Virus record (IMG/VR): IMGVR_UViG_3300042540_000012
Coordinates: 1 to 25,752 of that record
DNA: 25,752 bases
Origin: a virus
Reading direction: 5' to 3' (one strand)
Positions 3,608-25,709 of this stretch are shown piece after piece. Numbering within the stretch: position 1 is the stretch's first letter; the number at the start of each line of letters is the position of its first letter. Under the pieces are notes generated by a model. The model was not told the origin of the DNA and did not search any database. It saw only the letters and a list, made by a program, of their open reading frames with translations. The translations under genes and the position numbers were made by a program.

Positions 3608-4225
3608 ATGGAAAAGTATGGATTTGTATATCTTTGGTATGACAAGAAGCACAAAAGATATTATCTAGGTTGTCATTGGGGAACTGTCGATGACGGATAC
3701 ATATGTTCATCAACTTGGATGAAACAAGCATATTTACGTAGACCAAATGATTTTAAACGAAGAATTCTAAAAACTAATCTGGCCAGAGAACAGATGTATA
3801 TCGAGGAACAATATTACCTTGATATGATCAAGCCAGAGGAAAAGAAAATAAGATATTACAATTTAAAAGTAAGCAAAGATAATCCTTGGCACCAGTATCC
3901 AGACAACGTCATAACCGTTGGACAAAAAATATCATACTCAAAAAAAGGCAAAAAGACAGGACCATGTTCTTCTGAGAAAGCAGCAAAGATTTCTGCTGCT
4001 AAGAAAGGTAAGAACCTTACCGAAGAACATAAACAAGCTCTTCGTGGAATAAAAAAGAAACCTCATACTGAAGAATGGAAAGAAGAGAATGCTACTAGAA
4101 TGAAAGAACAGTGGTCGGATCCTAATAATAAAAGAAGATTAGCAGTTTCTGCTGCATCAAAAAAACGTTGGGAAGATTATAGACTAAATAAATCGTTAGG
4201 CAAAGATCTAACAACATCAGACTAG
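3608..4225 (+). CDS. GIY-YIG-like homing endonuclease with NUMOD3-type repeats
   Basis: This is a 205-residue basic protein. Residues 1-80 form a variant GIY-YIG nuclease domain: YLW (8-10) and YLG (19-21) stand for the two signature strands, followed by an Arg-rich helix (about residues 44-53) and the likely metal-binding Glu in EEQYYLDMI. After residue 110 come at least two Ser/Lys-Gly NUMOD3-type DNA-binding motifs (SEKAAKISAAKKGK, then TEEHKQALRGIKKK), the modular arrangement of free-standing phage homing endonucleases. The gene has a strong Shine-Dalgarno (AGGAGG) and is bracketed by the gene 23 terminator and its own terminator, as expected for a recently inserted mobile gene. Its nuclease domain resembles that of the gene at 16216-17556. 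The natural cleavage site is unknown; a neighbouring conserved gene such as 23 in related phages is the usual expectation. Confidence 0.82.
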   Translation: MEKYGFVYLWYDKKHKRYYLGCHWGTVDDGYICSSTWMKQAYLRRPNDFKRRILKTNLAREQMYIEEQYYLDMIKPEEKKIRYYNLKVSKDNPWHQYPDNVITVGQKISYSKKGKKTGPCSSEKAAKISAAKKGKNLTEEHKQALRGIKKKPHTEEWKEENATRMKEQWSDPNNKRRLAVSAASKKRWEDYRLNKSLGKDLTTSD

Positions 4226-11051: not shown

Positions 11052-11161
11052 ATCATTTTTTTAATTTCTATAAACTGAATTTAATGCTTGAATATTATGA
11101 ACAATGGTTTATAATAATTGTATTCGCAATGTTTGTTTACTGGTATATGAGAAAAAAATGA
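11048..11161 (+). CDS. 37-residue membrane micro-protein
   Basis: A 37-codon frame runs from ATG 11048 to TGA 11161. The product is highly aromatic, with one hydrophobic span from about residue 20 to 34 (WFIIIVFAMFVYWYM) and a short basic tail (RKK), giving a predicted single-pass protein with its basic end in the cytoplasm. Both ends use ATGA overlaps: its start overlaps the deformylase stop and its stop overlaps the next gene's ATG at 11158. This chain of couplings is the best evidence that it is translated. No family is recognised. It could be a real micro-protein or a coupling leader for the downstream gene. Confidence 0.62.
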   Translation: MNHFFNFYKLNLMLEYYEQWFIIIVFAMFVYWYMRKK

Positions 11162-11718
11162 ATATTTTCTATATTTCTGACAACCCCGTGGAAGCAGCCG
11201 AGTGGATGGTAGATCGTCATGTTGTTAAGATGATTCTCGAATCTGCTCAGCTGCTTTCCACAGCACATCGTTTACTAGACGGTCGAGAAATTCAACTCGA
11301 AGTGCAGGTTGAACAGGAAGATGGTAAAATTAAAACACGCAAGAAAAAATGGTGGTTACTAAATGACTCGCGCGAACAAATTATATATTCAGCTACGCAC
11401 ATCAATCACCCATCTGCTGTATGGGCTCGCAGTAGCGTCGAGAATTACAATTGGTTGGTAGATCATTTCTTTGCGTTGATGCAAGAGTATACCTATCGTT
11501 ATGAAAAAACGCATAAGTGTTATGGCGAGATTTCAGCAACGTTGGCTTCTCCTCCTAAAAATTTACAAGAATATGATATGACTACTATGCCTTCTTGTAT
11601 GGCTCCTGAATATATTATTGACTCTGATCCAATAATAAATTATCGTAACTATTATAAGATGGGTAAAACACATCTTCATAAATGGACGAAGCGAGAGGCT
11701 CCACATTGGTTAGTATAA
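11158..11718 (+). CDS. Conserved phage protein of unknown function
   Basis: This 186-residue protein starts at ATG 11158, which overlaps the micro-ORF stop. An in-frame ATG at 11104 lies inside the micro-ORF and lacks support. The N-terminus (MNIFYISDNPVEAAEWMVDR followed by HVVKMILESAQLLSTAHRLL) is a well-conserved pattern I have seen in uncharacterised proteins of T4-like phages. His, Asp and several Trp residues recur (HINHPSAVWAR, PSCMAPEYI, HKWTKREAPHW). I cannot name an enzymatic function. It overlaps the following oxygenase gene by 13 bases (37 if that gene starts at ATG 11682), tying it to the modification-gene block. Confidence 0.75.
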   Translation: MNIFYISDNPVEAAEWMVDRHVVKMILESAQLLSTAHRLLDGREIQLEVQVEQEDGKIKTRKKKWWLLNDSREQIIYSATHINHPSAVWARSSVENYNWLVDHFFALMQEYTYRYEKTHKCYGEISATLASPPKNLQEYDMTTMPSCMAPEYIIDSDPIINYRNYYKMGKTHLHKWTKREAPHWLV

Positions 11719-12287
11719 AAGAAACTATTATAATTGATGATGTGATACCTGAAAACTTACAAGACGAGTATCATGATATAGTATTGTCAGAAAGATCTTG
11801 GTGTTTTCTTAAAGATATGACTTATAGTAAGGGTAATATAAAATACCCTTCTTATGGGTTTAATATGTTATTTAAACATCCGGATTATGGAGTAGTTTCT
11901 TCTCTTTATGAAAGAATAAGCGTTCCTATCATCAACAGTTTATTAGAAAAAACTAATTTAGAAATAAACGATATTTATTTCAATAGGTCTTTTTTGCAAT
12001 TACCTTTGTCTCAAAATTTTTACAGAGATCAAAATGGGTTGCATGTTGATTTGTCAGAACCGCATTACGCTTGTGTATATTATTTAAACGATTCTGATGG
12101 TGATACAATTATTATGGAACAAACTATAGATAATACTCCTCCAGGATCGCAAGGAGTTGATGTTAAAATACATAAGAGAGTTACTCCCAAGAAAGGCAGA
12201 ATGGTTGTCTTTGATGGAAGAAGGTATCATTGTTCAAGTCAACCTACGGAAAGTTATAGAGCAATAATAAATTTTGACTTAATATAA
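11706..12287 (+). CDS. 2OG-Fe(II) oxygenase, prolyl-hydroxylase-like
   Basis: This protein of about 193 residues has the double-stranded beta-helix signature of 2-oxoglutarate/Fe(II) dioxygenases: HVD (about 113-115), a distal His in RRYHCSSQ (about 175) and the 2OG-binding Arg ten residues later in SYRAIINF. The TTG at 11706 is chosen because GAGAGG lies 7 bases upstream; ATG 11682 is possible but has no ribosome site. Members of this branch hydroxylate protein side chains or small molecules in phages. Location next to a TET/JBP oxygenase raises the possibility of a tailoring step on modified DNA, but the target is not visible from sequence. Confidence 0.85.
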   Translation: MVSIKETIIIDDVIPENLQDEYHDIVLSERSWCFLKDMTYSKGNIKYPSYGFNMLFKHPDYGVVSSLYERISVPIINSLLEKTNLEINDIYFNRSFLQLPLSQNFYRDQNGLHVDLSEPHYACVYYLNDSDGDTIIMEQTIDNTPPGSQGVDVKIHKRVTPKKGRMVVFDGRRYHCSSQPTESYRAIINFDLI

Positions 12288-12302
12288 GGATTATAGTATA
12301 AT
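12274..12302 (+). promoter_or_regulatory. Sigma70-type promoter overlapping the MazG-like start codon
   Basis: TTGACT (12274-12279), a 17-base spacer and TATAAT (12297-12302) form a near-consensus promoter. The -10 box overlaps ATG 12301. The expected start site, about 12309, is next to an in-frame ATG at 12310, so a leaderless or nearly leaderless message is possible. Confidence 0.7.
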
Positions 12303-12681
12303 GTCTAATATGTTCCAAGAAGTAAAAAAGTTTCAAACAGCAGTCGGACAGAATGTCAGCGAAGTTCCATATTTTCCAGATGAGAACGAACGTGTGTTGC
12401 GTCGTAAACTTTTAAAAGAAGAAGTAGAAGAGTATTTTGAAGGCGAAGATAAGGATGATCTAGAGAATGTCGCCAAAGAGCTTGCTGATATTATTTACAT
12501 TGTTTGTGGCACTGCTGCATCTTATGGGATTCCCTTGGACAGAGTCTTCAACGAAGTCCATAGATCTAACATGGAAAAATTAGTAGACGGTAAAGTAGTT
12601 CGTCGTGATGATGGTAAGATTTTGAAACCCGAAGGTTGGACTGCTCCAGATATTAAGAGTGTTCTATACGGAGATAAGTGA
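12301..12681 (+). CDS. MazG-like nucleotide pyrophosphohydrolase
   Basis: This 126-residue all-alpha NTP pyrophosphohydrolase carries the Mg-binding pattern E40-E41-x2-E44 and E60-x2-D63 (EEVEE then KELAD) typical of MazG/HisE-like enzymes. These hydrolyse NTPs or dNTPs to monophosphates and pyrophosphate. Phage MazG-like proteins are proposed to adjust nucleotide pools or ppGpp levels. Start is either ATG 12301 (AGGA 11 bases upstream) or ATG 12310 (initiation on a transcript starting at the overlapping promoter). Its stop overlaps the start of the TET/JBP gene, so the two are cotranslated. Confidence 0.85.
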   Translation: MSNMFQEVKKFQTAVGQNVSEVPYFPDENERVLRRKLLKEEVEEYFEGEDKDDLENVAKELADIIYIVCGTAASYGIPLDRVFNEVHRSNMEKLVDGKVVRRDDGKILKPEGWTAPDIKSVLYGDK

Positions 12682-14051
12682 TGGTAAGACGTATTGTTGC
12701 TCGTCAAAAACACGATTGTGAACATCTTCTTGGCACTTTCGTTGACGAGAGTCATTATGATATTTTGATCGAAGAAGATACTGATTGCTATATGCCACCA
12801 CTATGCGATCCGCTTACCAAAGCGGATTGTGGAACTAAAGAATGCGAAGATTGTGATAAAGGTAATGATGAATTACGTATCGCATTTAAGTTTCGCAAAA
12901 ACTATTTTTCTAAGGAAGAATGTGAACGAGCGTATGAAGGTCTAAGGCAAGCAGCCACTGAATCTCAAAATCGTGGTCTTGCTGCTGGCCCTCGTGGTGA
13001 CATGCTAGCATGTGAAGGTCGTGGTGGTCGAGATTGGGTTACTCCTTATCAACAGGAGATTTTAGACTTTCTTATGGATGATGGCGCAAAGGTAATTGAT
13101 GACAATTCAGTTGCATCTATTCGCGCTAAGTATGCAGATCCTAAATTTAAACCTGCAGATGAAACTCGTGGTACTGTATGGTTACGTTCAGAAGTCCAGA
13201 AAGTGTATCCGGAATATCATGGTTGGTTTGATAAATGGGTAGATGGTTTATCTAATAAACCAAACGAAGAAGTGCGTGCAGAGGCAAGAAAGGTTGCTGA
13301 AAAGTGGGCATCAACTACTAACTATGCAAAGTCAGTGTTTTCGGGCGTTGCTGGTTGGTATGATCGATACCCACGTATTCCGTATGGTCGTGCTACTGCA
13401 TACACTGAAAACCATCCAGAATTGTTTTCAAAGGCATATCCATTTCTCCAAACACTGAATAAAGGTTTTAGAGAATTACTTCCTTGGCGTTGGGGCAATC
13501 AGAAAGCTGCAGCAGATAAACTTGATCCAAGGTTTCTTGTTCCTGGAACAGTGTTTACTACATTGACTGTGAACAAGACTTTCCGAACAGCATGTCATCG
13601 AGACGCTGGCGATCTTGATTCTGGTTTATCTAATCTACTTGTCCTTGGTTCTGGAGAATATACTGGTGGTTATCTTATATTTCCTGAGTATCGTATCGCT
13701 GTTAATGTGCGTCCTGGCGATTTGTTACTCGTTAACAACCATGAGATTATCCATGGTAATACTCCTATCGTGCTTAATAAGCCTGATGATCCTTCTTGTG
13801 AGCGCATATCTGTAGTCTGCTATTTCCGTGAGAAAATGCTTGAGTTGAAATCATATGACTATGAATTGCTGCGTAAGCAATTTGTGGAAGAACGTCGTAT
13901 GAATAAAGATCATCCATTACATCGCCCATTGTGGAATGGGGTTTCTCCTGGAATGTGGGAAGAGCAAGAATGGTATGATTATCTTCACGCTCATGGAATG
14001 AAAGATCCTTACGGCAAAGACGAATTGGCTTCACTGGAGTCATTCTTCTAA
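12681..14051 (+). CDS. TET/JBP-family 2OG-Fe(II) dioxygenase acting on DNA bases
   Basis: This protein of about 456 residues has a C-terminal oxygenase domain (about 285-390) with the TET/JBP pattern: TVNKTFRTACHRDAGD with H and D iron ligands near residues 306 and 308, GGYLIFPEYRIAVNVRPGDLL, an HGNTP segment with the distal His near 358, and ERISVVCYFRE with the 2OG Arg near 375. This family oxidises the methyl group of 5-methylcytosine or thymine in DNA. The N-terminal third is extra and begins with a Cys-rich stretch (five Cys between about residues 36 and 58) that could bind zinc. ATG 12681 is preferred, with GGAG 7 bases upstream. The gene is followed by a TAATG overlap to the amidotransferase. 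Whether it hydroxylates T or 5mC is undetermined. Confidence 0.85.
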   Translation: MVRRIVARQKHDCEHLLGTFVDESHYDILIEEDTDCYMPPLCDPLTKADCGTKECEDCDKGNDELRIAFKFRKNYFSKEECERAYEGLRQAATESQNRGLAAGPRGDMLACEGRGGRDWVTPYQQEILDFLMDDGAKVIDDNSVASIRAKYADPKFKPADETRGTVWLRSEVQKVYPEYHGWFDKWVDGLSNKPNEEVRAEARKVAEKWASTTNYAKSVFSGVAGWYDRYPRIPYGRATAYTENHPELFSKAYPFLQTLNKGFRELLPWRWGNQKAAADKLDPRFLVPGTVFTTLTVNKTFRTACHRDAGDLDSGLSNLLVLGSGEYTGGYLIFPEYRIAVNVRPGDLLLVNNHEIIHGNTPIVLNKPDDPSCERISVVCYFREKMLELKSYDYELLRKQFVEERRMNKDHPLHRPLWNGVSPGMWEEQEWYDYLHAHGMKDPYGKDELASLESFF

Positions 14052-14749
14052 TGTGTGGTGTGCTTGGTATAGCATTAAGAGATGTAACTTCGGAAGATTG
14101 CGATTTAGTTCGCAATCTTTTTCTTCAATCCACGATTAGAGGAAAGCACGCTACTGGTGTATCATACGTAAAGAATGATAAGGTTGTTACAATTAAAGAA
14201 CCAGTTCCAGCTGATCAGTTTCTAGCTGATAAGGATATTTGGGATTGGGTCAATGAAGATGGTAATCTTTATTGCATTGGTCATGTAAGATATTCTACAA
14301 GCGACCTAAGATATAATCAGCCAATGGCAACTGATGAGTTGTCCATTGTTCATAATGGAGTAATCTCTCAAGAACCACCAGAGACTTGGGAAGAAACGTA
14401 TGGTTATAAAACAGAAACTGCTAATGATAGTGAACTGATTCTTCGAGCGATTGAAACAGGTCATAATCCTTTGATTAAATTTCATCCTGCTTCTATGGCT
14501 GTTTGTAAGATTGATAAAGATAAAGTGATCTCTGCATTCAGAAACGAAGCAAGACCTTTGTATAGAACATATATACAAAATAAAGGTTATCTGTTCGCTT
14601 CAACTGAAGATATTATTCACCGTAGTGGAATTGAAGGTATCATTAATAAAATGCATATGTATGAGGTTTATACGGTTACTCCACACCGAAATAGTTTTAA
14701 ATTTAATAATATGATATTCAATCATAATAAAGTGGAAGATCTACAATGA
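14051..14749 (+). CDS. Stand-alone class II glutamine amidotransferase
   Basis: This 232-residue Ntn-hydrolase begins MCGV, giving the N-terminal Cys nucleophile after Met removal, as in PurF, GlmS and AsnB amidotransferase domains. Further family motifs are RGKHATG, GHVRYSTS and a HNG motif with the oxyanion-forming Asn. No synthetase or isomerase domain is attached, so it should supply ammonia or a gamma-glutamyl transfer to a separate partner. The partner is probably the amidoligase whose start codon overlaps its stop (ATGA). It also overlaps the TET/JBP stop (TAATG), placing it in one translational unit with a DNA-base oxygenase. Confidence 0.92.
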   Translation: MCGVLGIALRDVTSEDCDLVRNLFLQSTIRGKHATGVSYVKNDKVVTIKEPVPADQFLADKDIWDWVNEDGNLYCIGHVRYSTSDLRYNQPMATDELSIVHNGVISQEPPETWEETYGYKTETANDSELILRAIETGHNPLIKFHPASMAVCKIDKDKVISAFRNEARPLYRTYIQNKGYLFASTEDIIHRSGIEGIINKMHMYEVYTVTPHRNSFKFNNMIFNHNKVEDLQ

Positions 14750-15618
14750 CATATGATCCTAAAACATTCACTTGGGGATTTGAGATGGAAGTTGGTGACG
14801 TAGATCGCCGTCTTCCTCTACCAGAAGAACTGGGTAAGTGGGAATTTTCAGAAACAGATGTTGTTAATTTAAATCCACCTTATCGTGGTATTGCTTGCGA
14901 TCCGCTTGGCATTGAACCACCATTTGGCGGCGAAATTAATGTAAGACCAACGAAAACTTGGAAGGAACAGGTTGACAGAATTTTTGAGATTCTTGATTTT
15001 TATAAATCGCACGGTAACAATCCTACTAGTAATTGTATTTCTCATAATCATGTTCATGTATATGTTCCAGGTCTAAAAGAAGATGTTGATGCGCTCAAAC
15101 GATTGGTTGCATACATCAAAGAAAATCAACATGTAGTAGTTGATCGTATCCATGCATTTAGATTGCACCCGGATATGGCTTCTACAAAGACTGCAAAAAC
15201 TTATTTGAAGTTAGATTGTGGTAGGTTGATGCCTGATTATATGTGTAATAATATTATCAATCTTACGACTAGTTTTGAACATTTTATTAAGTTACATTGC
15301 GCAGGTAAAGATGGCGTTTCTATGGGTCGTCCTTTCCGTTATGCAATTAATACATATTGTATGAAACACACAGGAACTATTGAGTTCCGTTGTTTCCGTA
15401 ATTCTTTTGACCGTAGAGAGTTAGAAGATTCTTTTAGATTTGTTGAAGCGTTTATAGACGCTGCGCTCAATAATGGCCCAGATGTTCTACAAATTCTTCT
15501 TGAAGGCGATTATAAATTTCCTGAACTAAAATATGATCACGAGATTTATACGTCATGGGAGAAAACAAAATATGATAAAGAGCGAGGAAAGAAATCCCGA
15601 GAGTTCATTGCAGTTTAA
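14746..15618 (+). CDS. Amidoligase-family (glutamine-synthetase-fold) COOH-NH2 ligase
   Basis: This 290-residue protein has the pattern of the Amidoligase_2 superfamily: GFEMEV (11-16) and GGEINV (61-66) supplying metal-binding Glu residues, HNHVHV (100-105) with the conserved paired His, and TIEFR (211-215) near the C-terminal part of the fold. These enzymes use ATP to join a carboxylate to an amine. In phages and bacteria they often pair with a class II amidotransferase and a GNAT, exactly the arrangement here (ATGA overlap upstream, 47-base overlap downstream). Substrate could be a modified base, a small metabolite or a peptide. Placement beside TET/JBP and kinase genes favours a modified base. 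Confidence 0.82.
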   Translation: MTYDPKTFTWGFEMEVGDVDRRLPLPEELGKWEFSETDVVNLNPPYRGIACDPLGIEPPFGGEINVRPTKTWKEQVDRIFEILDFYKSHGNNPTSNCISHNHVHVYVPGLKEDVDALKRLVAYIKENQHVVVDRIHAFRLHPDMASTKTAKTYLKLDCGRLMPDYMCNNIINLTTSFEHFIKLHCAGKDGVSMGRPFRYAINTYCMKHTGTIEFRCFRNSFDRRELEDSFRFVEAFIDAALNNGPDVLQILLEGDYKFPELKYDHEIYTSWEKTKYDKERGKKSREFIAV

Positions 15619-16144
15619 AACAGTTACAAAAGAACAATTTATAGCAAACATTAGCGATCATAAAGAAGATAAGTTTGCCAAAACATTTGTTGCTAAATGT
15701 GATATGTTAGATAAATGGAATGAAGTTGTTGGGCTCTGGGAAGGCGACGACCTTGCCGGAGCCATTCTTACAACTATTTCGAAACGTAAACCTTATACCG
15801 CTAACCTTCAATTGCTTCATACTTTTTATGCGCATAGAAACAAAGGTGTTGCCAGAAAGCTATGCAATCATTCTTTGTATTACGCTTTCTATTCGAGCGC
15901 ACATTATTTCAGAGTTTCTTCGGAAATTCCAGCTATACCGTTCTACAAAAAACTAGGCATACAATTCGTAGGTAAACAGAAAAGTGGATGTCTATTGGCT
16001 ATGTTTAAGATTAATTCTTCGGAATTCGAGAAGATTGATTACTCTCTCGACGATATAATCTATAAGGCTGCAACGAAAAAAGGAAAGGGAGGCTGCGTAG
16101 AGCTCTTCGTCGAATATAAAGGACTTGACATTTTCGCAGAATAG
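15572..16144 (+). CDS. GNAT-family N-acetyltransferase
   Basis: This 190-residue protein has the GNAT acetyl-CoA-binding motif A: beta strand LQLLHTFYAH followed by RNKGVA (about 89-94) at the start of the pyrophosphate-binding helix. A later FYKKLGIQFVG segment matches motif B. The C-terminal 50 residues are an extension of unknown role. ATG 15572 is chosen because GGGAGA lies 9 bases upstream; an earlier in-frame ATG at 15533 has no ribosome site. The gene overlaps the amidoligase end by 47 bases. GNATs recur in phage amidoligase clusters, where acyl transfer to a new amino group is a plausible role. The substrate is unknown. Confidence 0.85.
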   Translation: MIKSEERNPESSLQFKTVTKEQFIANISDHKEDKFAKTFVAKCDMLDKWNEVVGLWEGDDLAGAILTTISKRKPYTANLQLLHTFYAHRNKGVARKLCNHSLYYAFYSSAHYFRVSSEIPAIPFYKKLGIQFVGKQKSGCLLAMFKINSSEFEKIDYSLDDIIYKAATKKGKGGCVELFVEYKGLDIFAE

Positions 16145-16153
16145 TGGTAGTAT
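16125..16153 (+). promoter_or_regulatory. Sigma70-type promoter for the GIY-YIG/ParB-like gene
   Basis: TTGACA (16125-16130), a 17-base spacer and TAGTAT (16148-16153) lie across the end of the GNAT gene. Transcription from about 16160 would give a leader of roughly 55 bases before the ATG at 16216 and could carry the downstream kinase genes. Confidence 0.72.
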
Positions 16154-16158
16154 ATGTT

Positions 16159-16186
16159 TATTGGGTGATGTAAAGGAAGCCCAATA
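16159..16186 (+). repeat. Hairpin at the start of the leader of the 16216 gene
   Basis: TATTGGGT (16159-16166) pairs with GCCCAATA (16179-16186), seven Watson-Crick pairs plus a G-U, around a 12-base loop. It would lie at the very 5' end of the transcript from the 16125 promoter and leave the AGGAG site free. It may protect the mRNA end or bind a regulator. Confidence 0.55.
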
Positions 16187-16215
16187 TTTTGAAACGGTCC
16201 AAAAAGGAGTGACCT

Positions 16216-17556
16216 ATGAAAACTGCAAAACAGGCTATTTGTTATCTTTGGTATAATCGTGAAACTACTAAGATTGTCTATGTAGGTTATCATAAACTTT
16301 CTGATAAGAATGTTTCAGACTATTACACTTCGAGCTCTACTGATCCAGCGTTTAATGATGCCTGGAACAAAGGGTTTCTTCGTCGAGTAGAATTTTTTGA
16401 AGGCACATTAGAACAGTGTATCTCGCTCGAGCATTATATGCTTGATGTATTAGATGCTCGTAATAACCCAGATATGTATAATAAGACAAATGGTGGTGGT
16501 GCTGGATGTAGTCTTTCGCACGTCACAGATAAAATGCGAGAGATCGTTAGCCGATGTATTTCTACAGATTTCATTATCGAAAAAGCTAGATCTACGTATA
16601 AGGAGCATATTCGTCTTGCTCGATCGATTGCAAATAAGGTAAAAGAAAACAAAATCAAGAAACATTATGAAGTCCATAATGTTTACGTTGGAGAGTTGGC
16701 GAATTTCGAACGAATTCAAATTCGTTTTAAGCTACGTCATAATCATCATGTAAATAAACTTGTAGATCGTATGAACGATCCAGAGCGTGCCAATCAGCAT
16801 ATCAATCCTATTGTGGTTGTTGTTTTCCGTGACGGCAAGAAAAAGATTCTTGACGGTAATCATACGCTCAGTGCAGCAATTGAAGCTAAATGGGCAACTG
16901 TGCCCGTAATTTATATTAATTCTGACGAATTCCTTGATGATCCTTCTATTATGGATCATTTCGGGGTTCTTATGAATCACGAGCCAGTTGTCAAGGAAGG
17001 TAATTCTAAGGAAGATGTGAAGCGCAAGATTGAAGCTCTTTATGTCGATGGAATTCCTTTTGATTCGGATGAAATGGAAGAAATTGTATTTGATCTTTAT
17101 CTTGGAGAATTCTCTGAGAAGTCTCTAAAGAGTTTGATCAGCGCTGCTAAAGATCGTTATTTCACTAACGAAATTAACAGCAAGTATAATTTCTATAACT
17201 GGGTAGATAAGGATCTGAAGAAGAAGGTAAATTCTTACCTTGCAGAAAATCCTTATGCTGGTTGTATCAGTCAGTCTATAAGCACTGTCATTCACTCGGG
17301 TATTGGTGGTGTGGTAAATAGTTTGCGCCAAAAGACAAAGAATCGTCCCTCGGCAAGAAATAATCCGAAAGGCAAAATATTCATTCACTTTAAGAATGTT
17401 GAAGAATATCTTGAGAGAGATGTTCTTGAGCAAGAAGTCCGTGAATGTTTGGCCATTGCTAAACTTGAATGGATCGAGTTGGAATTTCTTCCTTGCTTCT
17501 GGGACACCAGGACAAATAAGGTAATAAGTGAACCAGCAAATCGTAAAGCAGCGTAA
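16216..17556 (+). CDS. GIY-YIG-like nuclease fused to a ParB-like domain
   Basis: This 446-residue protein has a variant GIY-YIG domain at residues 1-95: YLW (10-12), YVG (22-24), LRR (55-57) and the likely catalytic Glu72, followed by the typical end NKTNGGGAG. A basic helical linker (100-150) leads to a ParB/Srx-like domain (about 150-240) with INPIVVVV (196-203), DGNHT (213-217) and VPVIY (229-233). The last 200 residues are unassigned. The N-terminus resembles the nuclease domain of the gene at 3608. ATG 16216 has AGGAG 6 bases upstream and its own promoter. It overlaps the next gene by 29 bases. It may be a captured homing endonuclease or a working part of the DNA-modification module. 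I do not know this architecture from a characterised protein. Confidence 0.75.
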   Translation: MKTAKQAICYLWYNRETTKIVYVGYHKLSDKNVSDYYTSSSTDPAFNDAWNKGFLRRVEFFEGTLEQCISLEHYMLDVLDARNNPDMYNKTNGGGAGCSLSHVTDKMREIVSRCISTDFIIEKARSTYKEHIRLARSIANKVKENKIKKHYEVHNVYVGELANFERIQIRFKLRHNHHVNKLVDRMNDPERANQHINPIVVVVFRDGKKKILDGNHTLSAAIEAKWATVPVIYINSDEFLDDPSIMDHFGVLMNHEPVVKEGNSKEDVKRKIEALYVDGIPFDSDEMEEIVFDLYLGEFSEKSLKSLISAAKDRYFTNEINSKYNFYNWVDKDLKKKVNSYLAENPYAGCISQSISTVIHSGIGGVVNSLRQKTKNRPSARNNPKGKIFIHFKNVEEYLERDVLEQEVRECLAIAKLEWIELEFLPCFWDTRTNKVISEPANRKAA

Positions 17557-18526
17557 GCAAGATTTTATAAACTGGTATCGGTGGTCGCTTTCCATTAAGG
17601 ATTGCGACCCCGCTATCTTTATGACCAATTACTTGTTCCGTAGGTTCGAACATAACAGAGAACAGAAACTCTGGATTGCTTGGATCTACGGTACAACGTA
17701 TCATTTTCCGACAACGTGGGTTATCTGGAACGAGTTTCCTGATATGGAACTTGTTGGTCTTGATCGTTTGAAAGATTGGAACAGTAAGAATTATAAACGT
17801 CTACGGTATCAAACAGATACTAAATGGAACAAAGGCCATCTACCTGCTCAGTTTGAATCTTATAAAAACTGGGTTGGTGATAGATCGCAAGCAGAAGCGT
17901 TTAAAGATTTCCTTGCTCCGGGTAGCCCTAAACTAAGTTTCAGTTTACTATGGGACGAGGTCAAGGGAAACTTTCATAAGTTTGGTAGATATTCAACTTG
18001 GTTCTACATGCAAACATTAAAGCAATGTTGCGGTTTACCAATTGAACCGAGCAGTCTAATGCTTGAAGATTATTCTGGCTCAAGATCTCACCGCAATGGT
18101 TTATGCTTCGCTCTTGGTAAGCCTGAATGGATTGATAAAAAATTAGATGTCAGTCAACTTGCTTATCTGGAAGCACAGGCGTATCTAATTCTAGAAGAAG
18201 TTAAGAAAGACTTTCCTGACACTGATTATTTTGATATGGAAACATGTCTCTGTTCTTTTAAAAAGTTATTCAGAGTAAAACATGGTCGATATCTTGGGTA
18301 TTATCTTGATCGTCAAGCTGAAGAAATTACTCAGTGTGAAAAAGATGGATGGGATGGTATTGATTGGCAACCAATGTGGGACGCTCGTAATGAAACTCTA
18401 AATAATAAACTATTGACTAATCAGATAAACAATAGTAAAATGGCTTTGTATAGTGAGAATGGTATTCTAGACTGTACAGGTTTATTTGTTAAACCTGAGA
18501 GTATAGGAATTGAAAGGTTTATGTAA
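17528..18526 (+). CDS. Helical protein resembling amino acid:DNA transferase / hmdU-kinase helical families
   Basis: This 332-residue, Trp- and Tyr-rich, mainly helical protein starts at GTG 17528 (AAGG 6 bases upstream). Conserved-looking blocks are the N-terminal DFINWYRWS and IFMTNYLFRRFE, the IYGTTYHFPTTWVIW block, and a central TKWNKGHLPAQFESY. The overall pattern recalls the helical aGPT-pyrophosphorylase group described for thymine-hypermodifying phages, later resolved into amino acid:DNA transferases and the helical domain of 5-hydroxymethyl-dU DNA kinase. This is recognition from memory and is uncertain. Supporting it, the stop overlaps the start of a P-loop kinase (TAATG), the expected partner. 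The family would act on DNA containing hydroxymethylated bases. Confidence 0.6.
   Translation: MNQQIVKQRKQDFINWYRWSLSIKDCDPAIFMTNYLFRRFEHNREQKLWIAWIYGTTYHFPTTWVIWNEFPDMELVGLDRLKDWNSKNYKRLRYQTDTKWNKGHLPAQFESYKNWVGDRSQAEAFKDFLAPGSPKLSFSLLWDEVKGNFHKFGRYSTWFYMQTLKQCCGLPIEPSSLMLEDYSGSRSHRNGLCFALGKPEWIDKKLDVSQLAYLEAQAYLILEEVKKDFPDTDYFDMETCLCSFKKLFRVKHGRYLGYYLDRQAEEITQCEKDGWDGIDWQPMWDARNETLNNKLLTNQINNSKMALYSENGILDCTGLFVKPESIGIERFM
18413..18441 (+). promoter_or_regulatory. Sigma70-type promoter inside the 17528 gene
   Basis: TTGACT (18413-18418), a 17-base spacer and TAAAAT (18436-18441) precede the P-loop kinase gene by about 85 bases. It would allow the kinase, DUF3310 and downstream genes to be transcribed separately from the helical partner gene. 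Confidence 0.58.
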
Positions 18527-19071
18527 TGAAAATAATTGCGATTGGTGGGGAGCCAGGTGCTGGTAAGTCTACGTTAGTTAAACAGATTCTAGAAATTCTA
18601 GATAAGTATATTCCTGTAAAATGTTATGATAATTTTAAACTAGTTCCATATATCCAATGCGGTTCTCTTTATATACTAGGTAAGTATGACGAAGGCGAAA
18701 CTTTCTCTGGAACCGATCGCATGTCTATGGCAGTTCAGCCAGAAGCAGTTAAATTCCTAGCAAGTTTGCATAAAGATTCGGTTGTTCTTTTTGAGGGCGA
18801 CCGTCTTTTCACATCAACGTTCTTAGAACATTGCGTTGAGAATTACGATACTGAAATCATTTATCTAGAAACCGATAAGAGTATTCGTCAAGAGCGTTAC
18901 AAAGAGCGTGGTAGCAATCAGAATGAAACTTGGCTACAAGGTCGGGAAACAAAGATTGCAAACATTCTTTCTAATATGACATTGATGTTCAATGTTACAA
19001 AGTTCAAGAACAACAATAAGGAAGAACAGAAGATTATTGTGGATTACATTATGAAATATTTGGAGGCATGA
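18526..19071 (+). CDS. P-loop kinase, candidate hydroxymethyl-base (5-hmdU) DNA kinase
   Basis: This 181-residue nucleotide-kinase-like protein has Walker A GEPGAGKST (8-16), a FEGDRLF motif with an acidic substrate or metal residue, an IYLETD beta-strand end and an Arg-rich lid (RQERYKERGSNQNETW). The LGKYDEGETFSGTDR block is like that of P-loop kinases linked to phage base hypermodification. In the ViI/M6 phage systems a P-loop kinase phosphorylates 5-hydroxymethyl-dU in DNA so the phosphate can be displaced by an amine. Its start overlaps the helical partner gene (TAATG). An ordinary nucleotide kinase is the alternative. Confidence 0.75.
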   Translation: MKIIAIGGEPGAGKSTLVKQILEILDKYIPVKCYDNFKLVPYIQCGSLYILGKYDEGETFSGTDRMSMAVQPEAVKFLASLHKDSVVLFEGDRLFTSTFLEHCVENYDTEIIYLETDKSIRQERYKERGSNQNETWLQGRETKIANILSNMTLMFNVTKFKNNNKEEQKIIVDYIMKYLEA

Positions 19072-19415
19072 TGAGCAGGTTATATAGTGAAATACCATCA
19101 GGTGTTAGTTATAAATTGGATGTTGCTGGAAAGGTTGCGCCTAAATACAAATATATGGAAGATCAGATTATTGCTGATTTCCACGCCTATATAGATAAGA
19201 CATATGGGCAGCATTATATGACTGAAGAAGAGAATATAGAATGTTTCGATGTGTGGCTTGCTCTTGGTGATTCTATGCCTACCTTCCGAAACACTGCTAT
19301 CAAATATCTTTGGCGCTATGGTAAAAAGCATGGCAGCAATAAAGATGACTTGCTAAAAGTTCTTCATTATGTTATAATGATGCTTTATGCAGATCATTAT
19401 AAGGATAGGAAATGA
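19068..19415 (+). CDS. DUF3310-type protein
   Basis: This 115-residue protein has the DUF3310 pattern in its C-terminal half: an aromatic/charged lead (ECFDVWLALGD), then FRNTAIKYLWRYGKKHGSNK, then a Leu-rich helix with a His (DLLKVLHYVIMM). The domain is widespread in phages, often close to nucleotide metabolism or DNA modification genes, and its biochemical role is unsettled. GGAGG sits just before the ATGATG, so initiation is at 19068 or 19071; the start overlaps the kinase stop. It overlaps the next gene by an ATGA. Confidence 0.82.
   Translation: MMSRLYSEIPSGVSYKLDVAGKVAPKYKYMEDQIIADFHAYIDKTYGQHYMTEEENIECFDVWLALGDSMPTFRNTAIKYLWRYGKKHGSNKDDLLKVLHYVIMMLYADHYKDRK
19350..19378 (+). promoter_or_regulatory. 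Possible sigma70-type promoter inside the DUF3310 gene
   Basis: TTGCTA (19350-19355), a 17-base spacer and a perfect TATAAT (19373-19378) precede the zinc-ribbon and glycosyltransferase genes. The -35 box matches only four of six consensus bases, so this is weaker than the others. Confidence 0.4.
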
Positions 19416-19600
19416 AGACTATTGAGGAATACGAAGAAGAGAAAAGATTATTGAGAGAAAGGCATGGCACTGGCATTCAGTGTCCAGCTTGTGGTGATGA
19501 ATTAGTTTTGTCTGAACCTGGCATCGTCTTACTATCAAACCCTCCTAGAAAAAAAGTTCATTGTAACACTTGTAAGTATCATAATACTATTACAGCATAA
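19412..19600 (+). CDS. Small zinc-ribbon protein
   Basis: This 62-residue protein has an N-terminal charged helix (TIEEYEEEKRLLRER) and two Cys knuckles, CPAC (about 24-27) and CNTC (about 51-54), separated by 23 residues, the spacing of a single zinc ribbon. It may bind nucleic acid or a partner protein. Its start overlaps the DUF3310 stop by an ATGA and the glycosyltransferase follows 12 bases later. The function is not known. Confidence 0.75.
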   Translation: MKTIEEYEEEKRLLRERHGTGIQCPACGDELVLSEPGIVLLSNPPRKKVHCNTCKYHNTITA

Positions 19601-19612
19601 GAAAGGTATATT

Positions 19613-20485
19613 ATGGAAATTAAGATCCCAATTGAAAAACTAAGAGAGCGCAAGTTATTTGTCGCCACACCAATGTATGGCGGACAGTGCGCTGGTATGT
19701 TTGCTCGTTCGTGTGCAGATCTTTCTGCTCTATGTACGCAGTATGGTATTCCTCTTCAGTTTTATTATTTGTTTAACGAATCACTAATTACTCGAGCTCG
19801 TAACTATTGTTGCGATGAGTTTATGCGTTCTGAATCGCAGCATCTAATGTTTATTGATTCTGACATCGGATTCAATCCACAAGATGTTATTGCTCTAATG
19901 TCTCTACAGGCTCTTGAAGAAGATAAGTATGACATTATTGGTGGTCCATATCCTAAGAAGTGTATATCTTGGGAAAAGATTAAGCACGCTGTAGATAAGG
20001 GTGTTGCTGACGATGATCCAAATGTTCTAGAGCGGTTCGTTGGCGATTATGTTTTCAATCCCAAGGGCCATCAGACCTCTATTCCAATCGCAGAGCCAGT
20101 TGAAGTTCTAGAGATCGGAACTGGATTCATGATGGTTTCTAAGAAGGCCATGACTAAGTTTTATGATGCCTATAAGGATCAGTATTCTTACAAGCCTGAT
20201 CATGTTCGCACTGAGCATTTTGATGGTAGCCGTGAGATTCTTCAGTTCTTCCAGGCAGAAATTGATCCGGTATCTAAGCGTTATCTTTCGGAAGATTATT
20301 GGTTCTGTCAGAAGGCACAGGCAATTGATCTTAAGACATGGTTCTGTCCATGGATGAAGATGCAGCATGTTGGAACTTACATCTTTGGTGGTTCGCTTGC
20401 TGACCTTGCTTCGATTGGCGCTTCAGCTACTGCTGATCCAGGAGCATTAAAGTCAAAGAAAATGATGAAATCAAAGAACAAGTGA
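19613..20485 (+). CDS. GT-A-fold glycosyltransferase
   Basis: This 290-residue protein has the features of a GT-A, family-2-like glycosyltransferase: an N-terminal LFVATPMYGG strand-loop, an Arg-containing SLITRARN helix, and the metal-binding DxD in MFIDSDIGF (Asp82 and Asp84). A GGPYPKK loop, an EVLEIGTGFMMVSKK acceptor-side block and SEDYWFCQKA supplying acidic residues complete the pattern. The C-terminus is Ala/Ser-rich, then Lys-rich (KSKKMMKSKNK), which may help DNA or membrane contact. Similar enzymes are frequent in T4-like phages. Next to a TET/JBP oxygenase and kinase, glycosylation of a hydroxymethyl base is plausible; glycosylation of a host surface or virion component is the alternative. 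Confidence 0.85.
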   Translation: MEIKIPIEKLRERKLFVATPMYGGQCAGMFARSCADLSALCTQYGIPLQFYYLFNESLITRARNYCCDEFMRSESQHLMFIDSDIGFNPQDVIALMSLQALEEDKYDIIGGPYPKKCISWEKIKHAVDKGVADDDPNVLERFVGDYVFNPKGHQTSIPIAEPVEVLEIGTGFMMVSKKAMTKFYDAYKDQYSYKPDHVRTEHFDGSREILQFFQAEIDPVSKRYLSEDYWFCQKAQAIDLKTWFCPWMKMQHVGTYIFGGSLADLASIGASATADPGALKSKKMMKSKNK

Positions 20486-20501: not shown

Positions 20502-21155
20502 ATGAAGATTGATACAGATACAGTTAATGTTCTTAAGAATTTTGCTAAGATTAATCCTTCCATTGTTGTCCAGGAAGGTAATGTTCTTAAGACTATTTCG
20601 CCAACCAAGACAATCATGGCAAAGGCAAAGGTAAAGACAGATTTTGATAAGCGATTTGCAATCTATAATCTCGATCGTTTCATCTCGATCGTTAGCACTT
20701 TTACTGATCCAGATTTTAAGTTTGGAGATAAGTCTGTTGATATTTCTGACAACAATCGTAAGACTCATTATGTTTATGCTGACGAAACCACGGTAACAAA
20801 GGCTCCGGAGAGAGAAATCAATCTTCCTTCGGTTGACGTTACTTTCCGTTTGACTAATGATAATCTTCGAGATGTTGAGAAGGCTGCTGGCATTCTTGCT
20901 CTGCCAGAGATTGTTGTCATGGGCGACGGTAAGAATCTATATCTTCAGGCTGCTGATTCGAAGAATCCTTCTGGCGACGTATATTCTATTCAGATTGGCG
21001 AGACTGATAAGGCGTTCAAGGCAATCTTTAAGGCTGAGAATATTAAGATTATTCCTGGCGATTATGATGTTAATATCTCATCAAAGGGCATTTCGCATTT
21101 TGTGCGTGATGATGTAGAATATTATATTGCAGTTGAATCAAGCTCAACTTTCTAA
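20502..21155 (+). CDS. 45: Sliding clamp (gp45)
   Basis: This 217-residue protein matches the T4 gp45 clamp (228), the trimeric processivity ring for DNA polymerase that also activates late transcription by contacting gp55 and gp33. The N-terminal MKIDTDTVNVLKNFAKINPS, the AKVKTDFDKRFAIYNLDRFI segment and the C-terminal EYYIAVE strand are characteristic. AGGAG precedes the ATG. It normally sits directly upstream of gene 44; here a minus-strand endonuclease gene intervenes, and the two convergent genes overlap by 12 bases at their stop codons. Confidence 0.95.
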   Translation: MKIDTDTVNVLKNFAKINPSIVVQEGNVLKTISPTKTIMAKAKVKTDFDKRFAIYNLDRFISIVSTFTDPDFKFGDKSVDISDNNRKTHYVYADETTVTKAPEREINLPSVDVTFRLTNDNLRDVEKAAGILALPEIVVMGDGKNLYLQAADSKNPSGDVYSIQIGETDKAFKAIFKAENIKIIPGDYDVNISSKGISHFVRDDVEYYIAVESSSTF

Positions 21156-21662
21156 TCTATAAAACTCGGAATACTTTGGATTGTCTAATCTTTTGCGAAT
21201 AGAAATACCAGGATATGCTTCTTGAGCTTCGTTGATAGAAGCATATCTTTTTCCTTCGCACATAACTGGGCGACTATTGGATTTTCTGATAGCTTCAAAA
21301 AACTTATCAGATTGTTTCTTTCCGAGCATACCATAAGTGGGAGGTGGTGGCGGTCTTTTCTTTATGCCTTCGATAAAATTTGGAGAGCTAGAAGTATCAC
21401 CGCCATCTCCTCCTTTTGTCATATTGTAATGTGGCGCCAGTTCTGAAATCCAGAACTTTTCTCTTTCGTCGATATATGTGGTTTCTTCTATTGTTTCAAT
21501 AACAAAATTATCGAAGCCATGTTTTCTCATCGACTTATAGAGATAGGTGTTACCAGATTTGTGATTGTAATAATGACGCTTAAATCTTTCTTCGGTAGTT
21601 TTTGTGGACTTACCTACGTAAAATTTACCATTGATAAGGTTGGTGATTTTATATATAATCAT
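21144..21662 (-). CDS. GIY-YIG homing endonuclease, antisense between genes 45 and 44
   Basis: This 172-residue protein is encoded on the minus strand. Residues 1-85 are a textbook GIY-YIG domain: IYKITN (3-8) and FYVGKS (14-19) signature strands, catalytic-type Arg in ERFKRHYYNHK, metal-binding Glu in DEREKFWISEL and the family end NMTKGGDGGD. A Pro run follows, then a NUMOD3-like GMLGKKQSDKFFEA and a C-terminal NUMOD1-like module (SRPVMCEGKRYASINEAQEA) for DNA recognition. AGGAG lies 9 bases before the ATG. A perfect late promoter (21723-21730) and a leader hairpin lie upstream. Its position suggests mobility into the gene 45/44 junction. Confidence 0.93.
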   Translation of the reverse strand: MIIYKITNLINGKFYVGKSTKTTEERFKRHYYNHKSGNTYLYKSMRKHGFDNFVIETIEETTYIDEREKFWISELAPHYNMTKGGDGGDTSSSPNFIEGIKKRPPPPPTYGMLGKKQSDKFFEAIRKSNSRPVMCEGKRYASINEAQEAYPGISIRKRLDNPKYSEFYRLES

Positions 21663-25318: not shown

Positions 25319-25395
25319 GTGGATGTGTCCGGAACTGGTTACGGAACGGTCTGCAAAACCGTATTATGTGGGTTCGAGTCCCATCATCCACTCCA
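25319..25395 (+). tRNA. tRNA-Cys (anticodon GCA)
   Basis: The acceptor stem GTGGATG pairs with CATCCAC, followed by T and an encoded CCA. The anticodon arm ACGGT-CTGCAAA-ACCGT places GCA at positions 34-36. The T-arm has a TTCGAGT loop. The first base lies 5 bases after the preceding palindrome. Confidence 0.88.
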
Positions 25396-25396
25396 T

Positions 25397-25470
25397 GCTT
25401 CCTTAGCTCAAAGGTAGAGCAATCGCTTGATAAGCGATAGACGTTGGATCGATACCATCAGGAAGCACCA
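25397..25470 (+). tRNA. tRNA-Ile (anticodon GAT)
   Basis: The acceptor stem GCTTCCT pairs with AGGAAGC, then A and CCA. The D-arm is GCTC/GAGC and the anticodon arm ATCGC-TTGATAA-GCGAT gives GAT. The T-loop reads ATCGATA in place of the usual TTCGANN, and one T-stem pair is mismatched, so this tRNA is slightly atypical. Confidence 0.8.
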
Positions 25471-25471
25471 T

Positions 25472-25546
25472 GGCCCCATCGTCTAATGGTTAGGACAGCG
25501 GCCTTTCAAGCCGTCAATACGAGTTCGAATCTCGTTGGGGTCACCA
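25472..25546 (+). tRNA. tRNA-Glu (anticodon TTC)
   Basis: The acceptor stem GGCCCCA pairs with TGGGGTC, then A and CCA. The anticodon loop CTTTCAA gives TTC, and the T-loop is TTCGAAT. All arms close, with wobble pairs only at the ends. Confidence 0.9.
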
Positions 25547-25552
25547 GTTTAT

Positions 25553-25628
25553 GGACCGATAGCTCAGTTGGTAGAGCAGGGGACTCTTAATCCCTTTGTC
25601 GTGGGTTCGAATCCCTCTCGGTCTACCA
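25553..25628 (+). tRNA. tRNA-Lys (anticodon CTT)
   Basis: The acceptor stem GGACCGA pairs with TCGGTCT, then A and CCA. The anticodon arm GGGGA-CTCTTAA-TCCCT gives CTT. The T-loop is TTCGAAT. It reads AAG codons. Confidence 0.9.
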
Positions 25629-25633
25629 TTTAT

Positions 25634-25709
25634 GGATCCGTAGCACAATAGGTGGTGCAAGGGACTTTTAATCCCAAGGCTGTCGGTTCGAGTCCGACCG
25701 GATCCTCCA
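25634..25709 (+). tRNA. tRNA-Lys (anticodon TTT)
   Basis: The acceptor stem GGATCCG pairs with CGGATCC, then T and CCA. The anticodon loop CTTTTAA gives TTT. The outermost anticodon-stem pair is A-A, the rest pair well. It reads AAA codons and complements the CTT tRNA-Lys next to it. Confidence 0.85.

Follow-up and report, generated by a model that had tools for sequence, protein, structure and literature searches.

A candidate thymine-DNA hypermodification operon with an amidotransferase, an amidoligase and an acetyltransferase in a T4-like phage

Which base of its DNA would a phage modify, and into what, if one of its operons combines an oxygenase of the TET/JBP family with enzymes for amino acid transfer to DNA, amide formation and acetylation? 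The question is raised by virus record IMGVR_UViG_3300042540_000012, analysed at positions 1 to 25,752 (the window, below, is this whole stretch of 25,752 bases). The source is a freshwater T4-like phage; the window gave no megablast match among phage records. Its gene order is T4-like, and counterparts of its gp46, gp45, gp44 and peptide deformylase were located by tblastn in Caulobacter phage Cr30 as well as in Stenotrophomonas phage DLP6. The operon in question comprises seven plus-strand genes at 12678-19071, most of them overlapping by a few bases:

12678..14051, plus strand: TET/JBP 2-oxoglutarate/Fe(II) oxygenase (TET); Pfam Tet_JBP, 1.1e-23; GTG start, with an ATG at 12681
14051..14749, plus strand: stand-alone class II glutamine amidotransferase (GATII), a glutaminase and the proposed ammonia donor; GATase_6, 8.7e-11
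14746..15618, plus strand: amidoligase, a COOH-NH2 ligase of the glutamine-synthetase/gamma-GCS superfamily, by the Pfam matches of its relatives and its predicted fold
15533..16144, plus strand: GNAT acetyltransferase; Acetyltransf_10, 2.3e-7; the ATG at 15533 overlaps the amidoligase gene, and an alternative ATG is at 15572
16216..17556, plus strand: ParB-like protein with a GIY-YIG-like N-terminal part, an optional member; PHROGs, 3.2e-6 and 1.1e-5
17528..18526, plus strand: amino acid:DNA transferase (ADDT; aGPT-PPlase-like); PF18724, 3.5e-24
18526..19071, plus strand: P-loop kinase (Ploopntkinase3), proposed 5-hydroxymethyl-dU DNA kinase; PF18751, 4.6e-12; Walker A GEPGAGKS

The best reading is that these genes probably form a compact operon by which the phage hypermodifies its own DNA, with thymine as the starting base. 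A first-pass annotation had placed a hypermodification island at 11706-20485. All the gene families that it named are present, but the span is too wide, since the genes at 11706-12681 and 19068-20485 lie outside the conserved unit of 12678-19071.

Enzymes of the operon and their co-occurrence

TET, GATII, GNAT, ADDT and the kinase pass the Pfam cut-offs. TET scores 83.7 bits with Tet_JBP (cut-off 34.9) and matches TET2 at 4.9e-6 in a profile search of the PDB; the TET/JBP signature is HxD...H with a distal Arg, and H307, D309, H359 and R376 are invariant in 28 aligned rows. The ADDT scores 86.2 bits with PF18724 (cut-off 26.2). It is 27.9% identical to the ADDT of Salmonella phage ViI, which itself matches PF18724 at 3.2e-58, and it matches 376 named-phage records (best identity 29.8%), most of them from phages of Salmonella, Vibrio, Klebsiella and Escherichia, ViI among them, and 27 mycobacteriophages; a profile search of the PDB gave nothing at E up to 1. 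Thus the proteins encoded from 12681 and 17528, on whose families the first-pass proposal hinged, fall within TET/JBP and aGPT, the latter, described there as a helical protein, being ADDT.

The kinase scores 46.3 bits with PF18751 (cut-off 27), and the same kinase family adjoins TET and ADDT in mycobacteriophage Magpie (9.3e-73). HMUDK_HMUD1 is absent among the matches listed for the window kinase (best 25 of 30 families), phmmer found no match to it in the PDB, and BLASTP found no relation to the ViI gene guessed to be the ViI kinase, a gene that matches NT5C. On the strength of its family the protein is proposed to be a 5-hydroxymethyl-dU DNA kinase.

GATII belongs to the class II glutamine amidotransferases by its N-terminal cysteine and its glutamine-binding residues. 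In an alignment of 56 rows, two PaP3-type rows being left out, C2 is kept in all 51 rows that reach it, R80 in 53/53 and HNG in 54/54; R30-G31, H78/R80, H101-N102-G103 and D126/E128 are identical in every row reaching them. The NCBIfam matches, to asparagine synthase and N-acetylglutaminylglutamine amidotransferase, are far under cut-off.

For the amidoligase the first-pass annotation had advised structure prediction. The AlphaFold2 model (pLDDT 92.6) retrieves glutamine-synthetase/gamma-GCS/PafA-type chains in all 50 Foldseek rows listed, the best at E 2.6e-3 and none at or below 0.001, and superposes on such a PDB fold with VIA Z 10.8 (root-mean-square deviation 4.6 over 220 residues); a profile search of the PDB gave one chance-level row (0.36). 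Amidoligase_2 is matched by 29 of 31 aligned members, at best at 2.6e-8, and E13, E15, E63, E213 and R215 are invariant in the 31 rows. Fold and acidic residues are those expected of a glutamine-synthetase-like amidoligase, and we regard the identity of 14746-15618 as settled by the relatives' family matches and the predicted structure. A misreading of this gene was rejected on the same three results, that is, the Amidoligase_2 matches, the Foldseek rows and the Z-score. Hence the names given at first pass to the oxygenase, the amidotransferase, the amidoligase, the GNAT and the kinase all stand, and the operon looks functional because its active-site residues are conserved and intact.

The ParB-like protein is less uniform. 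Its Pfam match is weak (0.052), and the GIY-YIG half, read by eye, found no confirmation in Pfam, PHROGs or NCBIfam; hence only the ParB part of the GIY-YIG/ParB-like fusion proposed earlier is retained. Among 88 loci with amidoligase, GNAT and ADDT, pooled from the amidoligase scan and the TET scan described below (some contigs were fetched twice), the ParB slot holds a gap of more than 900 bases in 57, with a DGN-type motif in 43 of these, and no such gap in 31. In locus L030 the gene in this slot starts with an HNH-like stretch, seen by eye, and has no Pfam match.

Co-occurrence was assessed in a scan of IMG/VR viral contigs with the amidoligase, from which the best 80 of 200 relatives were kept; a partner was counted only in loci whose flank extends to its expected place. 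GATII was found in 66/66 such loci, GNAT in 77/77, ADDT in 64/64, the kinase in 49/49 and TET in 54/55. In the single exception (L167) the sequence stops 2.2 kb past the amidoligase on its downstream side, short of the roughly 4 kb at which TET follows the amidoligase in L126 and L131-L133. All five partners are present in each of the 37 loci covered on every side, and 36 of these share one gene order, TET being relocated downstream in L126. These loci are not independent: limiting amidoligase identity to 95% leaves 25 of them, and a limit of 80% leaves 18. Among all 37, the downstream glycosyltransferase (GT) occurs in 24, gp45 in 24 and a ParB-like match in 20. A pattern scan for the amidoligase across 84,980 species of bacteria and archaea, each represented by one genome, yielded a single contig, L170. 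It is probably a phage fragment, because inspection by eye suggests GATII, GNAT and a ParB-like protein for its other open reading frames (ORFs).

The island proposed at first pass is thereby borne out in its core: TET, ADDT and the kinase are true family members and travel with GATII, the amidoligase and GNAT. The latter three might be unrelated passengers serving cell-wall, capsid or osmolyte amidation; since they accompany ADDT, kinase and TET in 37/37 covered loci, whether or not gp45 or GT adjoins, we consider this very improbable, and return to it with the phages that speak in its favour.

The starting base and the product

The choice between thymine and cytosine was approached through the gene content of relatives, in 13 and 9 long records (45 to 168 kb, many of them fragments). 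C5-methyltransferase (PF00145) was found in 0/13 and 0/9, the nearest relative, G008, included, the window itself being outside that search. The ThyA family (PF00303), which presumably takes in the 5-hydroxymethyl-dUMP and dCMP hydroxymethylases, was found in 1/13 (Cr30) and 0/9, and not in the window. ThyX is present in 8/13, including G008, whose contig measures 87.8 kb and whose TET shares 99% identity with that of the window. Most of these phages therefore appear to produce ordinary thymine, and the visible source of a hydroxymethyl group is TET, which occurs once per record in the 8/8 long relatives searched. Because C5-methyltransferase is missing, the ThyA family occurs in only one of 22 records and ThyX is found in 8/13, thymine in DNA is the likely starting base, in agreement with the first-pass proposal. 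As to the known types, the C5-methyltransferase expected for TET-based cytosine hypermodification is lacking in all 22 long relatives; the ThyA family expected for ViI/M6-type initiation is lacking in the window and in 21 of them, fragments among these; and the joint presence of TET/JBP, ADDT, kinase and ParB-like genes would, as far as gene content tells, assign the operon to the TET-initiated type of phages Magpie and Tonitrus.

The oxidised base could instead be 5-methylcytosine, made by a methylase from the host or from elsewhere in the genome. TET enzymes act on 5-methylcytosine, and Burke is said to have described phage TET cytosine hypermodification in 2021. Moreover, the TET-associated glycosyltransferase (TAGT), which in relatives stands at the same spot, acts on glucosylated hydroxymethylcytosine in T2/T6, according to PMC13216743. 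However, besides the lack of C5-methyltransferase in 22/22 long records, many of them fragments, and the supply of ordinary thymine by ThyX in 8/13, the kinase and the transferase are described as acting on 5-hydroxymethyluracil (hmU) in PMC6449724, and we consider the cytosine alternative unlikely.

With thymine as the start, the following route may be proposed from the enzyme families. On thymine in phage DNA, TET would oxidise the 5-methyl group, which gives hmU; the kinase would phosphorylate the hydroxymethyl group, and an amino acid would displace the phosphate by means of ADDT. The amidoligase could then convert a carboxylate of the adduct to an amide, with ammonia drawn from glutamine by GATII, and GNAT could acetylate a free amine, so that the major groove would end up with a bulky group that carries no charge. 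The order of these last steps may differ, as they could act on DNA or else on an amino acid that is still free, and the ParB-like nuclease would be accessory. With an ADDT of the ViI type, a serine-like amino acid would fit, its amine and carboxyl being free once it is transferred. An O-linked amino acid leaves a carboxyl for GATII and the amidoligase and an amine for GNAT, and so suits this gene set; we infer that the product is an amidated and/or acetylated amino-acyl thymine. Its purpose would probably be the evasion of nucleases that read base sequence, a disguise against bacterial defences.

GATII, the amidoligase and GNAT may also act first, producing a capped amino acid or dipeptide in free form, which ADDT transfers as a finished block, or the amidoligase may join a second amino acid rather than ammonia. 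A model is the synthesis of N-acetylglutaminylglutamine amide; GATII matches the corresponding amidotransferase at 8.3e-8, but its 30.9 bits fall far below the cut-off of 570. Ligases of the gamma-GCS/YbdK type, which join two amino acids, share the amidoligase fold, and room for this variant is left by phage Simon, whose amidoligase has no GATII match within the 12.8 kb examined. On the other hand, a glutaminase beside the ligase argues for ammonia as the nucleophile, and we give this variant perhaps one chance for every three against it.

The interval between TET and the glycosyltransferase

The gene that closes the first-pass island is the following:

19613-20485, plus strand: GT-A fold glycosyltransferase (GT); Foldseek E 7.1e-6, model pLDDT 71.8

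The fold assigned to it earlier is upheld, its membership in the pathway is not. In Pfam it matches only Anp1 (0.011, with E up to 1), and it does not belong to the PF20691 TET-associated glycosyltransferase pathway, TAGT being a separate cassette in relatives. As a module part GT is ruled out: it stands between gp46 and gp45 in Sinorhizobium phages without a TET match, and in 24/37 amidoligase loci. A glycosylated base is therefore unsupported, GT being a syntenic neighbour.

GT nevertheless serves as a landmark. A TET scan (best 80 of 259 relatives, plus four named phage records) yielded 84 loci, of which 64 with a GT match at most 12 kb downstream of TET were used; the other 20 have no GT match in the stretch or have GT upstream (L058, L082). 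With one representative tested per cassette, and ADDTa denoting an ADDT at least 45% identical to that of the window, the 64 TET-GT intervals contain:

TAGT cassette: 20
amidoligase, GATII, ADDTa and kinase: 18
ADDTb, kinase and inositol-1-phosphate synthase: 7
ADDT, kinase and N6/N4 methylase: 5
ADDT, kinase and a protein of unknown family f25: 3
ADDT, kinase and a PLP-like protein (weak label, 0.078): 3
GT4-type glycosyltransferase (label under cut-off, 2.9e-4): 3
GATII, ADDTa and kinase without amidoligase: 2
kinase alone: 2
no cassette (DLP6): 1

If the two ADDTa sets are counted as one and DLP6 as none, there are eight alternative cassettes. GATII and the amidoligase occur in this interval only with ADDTa (18 complete sets, 2 without amidoligase, 0/44 others), which again argues against unrelated passengers; the remaining cassettes mostly consist of base-modification genes as well. 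The minimum number of cassette changes is 16 on the TET tree (41 rows) and 16 on the GT tree (38 rows), where nine would suffice for ten states; the trees are quick ones with many open forks, and the counts come without a shuffle control. The pattern fits repeated exchange, with GATII, amidoligase and ADDTa staying together. Somewhat speculatively, and with the odds against the two claims holding jointly, we suggest that the TET-GT interval of this lineage is a swap site that changes genome chemistry (amide, sugar, inositol-linked, methylase-coupled), like chemical antigenic variation, and that the product here is a doubly capped amino-acyl thymine, such as the N-acetyl-serinamide ether of 5-hydroxymethyl-dU, made wholly on thymine in DNA, a hypermodification of the carboxamide type that was not met in the literature searched.

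Several cassettes deserve a separate description. The inositol cassette (L004 1375-4767; L005, L006, L008, L009, L011, L018) contains a divergent ADDT, myo-inositol-1-phosphate synthase (PF01658, 3.4e-21), a kinase and a small HAD-like protein (weak, 0.074), which suggests that an inositol-type group is attached to the base; such a synthase in a TET cassette was not met in the literature, where no search was aimed at it. Cr30 (L082 17027-22894) combines an ADDT (1.3e-52) and an annotated inositol-1-phosphate synthase with matches to the small protein and the kinase, and it also matches TAGT weakly. TAGT (PF20691, 6.2e-13 for one representative) replaces ADDT and kinase after TET in its 20 loci (L019-L029, L035, L036, L038, L040, L043, L044, L047, L048, L059). 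It is given as a T2/T6-type glucosyltransferase on modified cytosine in PMC13390438 and PMC13216743, and the TET-TAGT loci are candidates for a base-J-like route in phages.

A single cassette of TET, an N6/N4-type DNA methylase (PF01555, 1.3e-16), ADDT and kinase is found in L052, L053, L054, L060 and L061. In L056 (3534-6309) and L057, TET is followed directly by kinase and GT without an ADDT match, the end product possibly being phosphorylated hmU. The f25 protein (L041 9273-10058; 261 aa), between TET and ADDT, has no Pfam or NCBIfam match. In phage C48C1 (L083 13932-17379), TET is followed by a protein without a Pfam match and then by UDP-galactopyranose mutase (5.6e-52), which hints at a galactofuranose-type decoration.

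Around the operon, a second 2-oxoglutarate oxygenase (11682-12287; 2OG-FeII_Oxy_3, 9.2e-6) lies directly upstream and is present in only some relatives. This gene, the pyrimidine-excise-like gene at 11104-11718 and the MazG, DUF3310 and zinc-ribbon genes were rejected as members, because their presence or absence in relatives does not follow the cassette. Two ORFs of GIY-YIG type, both possible homing endonucleases, lie at 3608-4225, after the capsid gene (read by eye), and at 21144-21662 on the minus strand, between the sliding clamp and clamp loader genes (GIY-YIG, 1.8e-9). Five tandem tRNA genes (Cys, Ile, Glu, Lys, Lys) end the window at 25319-25709. Promoter-like sites number 48 in the window, against 40.2 in shuffles, and terminator-like sites 16, against 5.8.

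Comparison with known systems and meaning for phage biology

The closest known arrangement is that of Magpie, with Tet_JBP (5e-6; 26.3 bits, under the cut-off of 34.9), an ADDT (4.6e-9; 28.1% identical to that of the window over 74%), Ploopntkinase3 and an annotated ParB. It differs in that no GATII, amidoligase or GNAT is annotated in the 6.1 kb examined. For Rhodococcus phage Tonitrus, PMC11955845 gives ParB, TET/JBP, ADDT or aGPT-Pplase2, a 5-hmU DNA kinase and a hypothetical protein. TET with ADDT, kinase and ParB is thus already known from actinophages, and of the undescribed base suggested at first pass it is the GATII-amidoligase-GNAT arm that is unusual.

According to Lee and colleagues, the ViI base reportedly derives from O-linked serine that is then decarboxylated, and ViI presumably has a decarboxylase where GATII, amidoligase and GNAT stand here. 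PMC6449724 gives this base as 5-(2-aminoethoxy)methyl-dU and describes how transferases modify hmU in DNA after a 5hmdU DNA kinase has phosphorylated it. The homologous ADDT and the substitution of hmU after its phosphorylation in DNA are common ground; the difference is that replication in ViI is believed to incorporate hmU as a nucleotide (PMC6449724), an entry that TET replaces here.

A scan of a phage collection with the window amidoligase gave two records at E 0.01, Simon and Vibrio phage 2.275.O. In Simon (L087 2864-10543, PQ683277) a distant amidoligase (27.7%) lies near ADDT (5.8e-15), DAO (6.4e-17), LMWPc (5.2e-15), HMUDK_HMUD1 (2.5e-5; 24.3 bits, under the cut-off of 27), HMUDK_hel (3.8e-42) and thymidylate synthase (2.2e-22). 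This is an unannotated thymidine hypermodification cluster with an amidoligase and a FAD oxidase, which we take to be an M6-type gene set and which counts in favour of the proposed pathway; unlike in the window, a thymidylate-synthase homologue stands in place of TET, the FAD oxidase is present, and there is no GNAT or TET match in the 12.8 kb, as was said of GATII.

The other phages bear on the passenger explanation. In 2.275.O (L088 5887-10147) a distant amidoligase (26.2%) and a weak GATase_6 (0.0015) occur without an ADDT match in 12.8 kb, and in the PaP3/LUZ24-type cluster of PaP3 annotated GATII-type and amidoligase genes stand side by side without an ADDT, kinase or TET match in 8.6 kb, accompanied by an annotated ribosomal S6 glutaminyl transferase and gamma-glutamyl cyclotransferase. 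Both would allow these enzymes a role apart from ADDT. However, the PaP3 amidoligase has no match to that of the window, and the 2.275.O pair lies among annotated 7-deazaguanine genes, again possibly base chemistry; these enzymes may amidate a deazaguanine base.

Several observations weigh against thymine hypermodification through the full gene set. Taken alone, the window amidoligase matches Amidoligase_2 at 0.052, under the Pfam cut-off. In locus L058 the amidoligase is diverged (30%) and GNAT gave no match, and L033/L034 keep GATII, GNAT, ADDT and kinase with no amidoligase between them or, by a search of the whole contigs, themselves fragments, elsewhere; hence the amidoligase is not indispensable and the arm can vary. 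TET also occurs without ADDT, in the TAGT and GT4 cassettes, so that TET alone does not allow this product to be deduced; nor, given the PaP3-like cluster without an ADDT match, is the GATII-amidoligase pairing alone proof of DNA chemistry. No ThyX was seen in 5/13 long records, and since most records are fragments, the missing methyltransferase and hydroxymethylase are evidence, not proof. Finally, the literature searched yielded no chemical work on any of these phages.

Tailoring genes of thymidine hypermodification, acetyltransferases included, are said to combine freely (Lee, in 2022). The literature searched gave no account of TET combined with GATII and amidoligase, but as Iyer 2013, Lee 2018, Lee 2022, Burke 2021 and the EcoSal Plus review by Hutinet lay beyond its reach, an earlier description is possible; GATII, amidoligase and GNAT as a tailoring arm on a TET-initiated pathway look new.

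If the proposal is true, the known reactions of DNA hypermodification would gain carboxyl amidation, and thymine would become a testable substrate for a phage TET. Tests of the core need not wait for the metagenomic phage, because the isolated phages Cr30, DLP6 and Magpie carry related TET genes. In the stretches examined, neither Magpie nor Cr30 has the amidoligase arm, and the ThyA-family gene of Cr30 could by itself be a source of hmU. One locus with eight cassettes in otherwise similar phages would, moreover, provide a natural comparison of which base chemistry defeats which bacterial defence.

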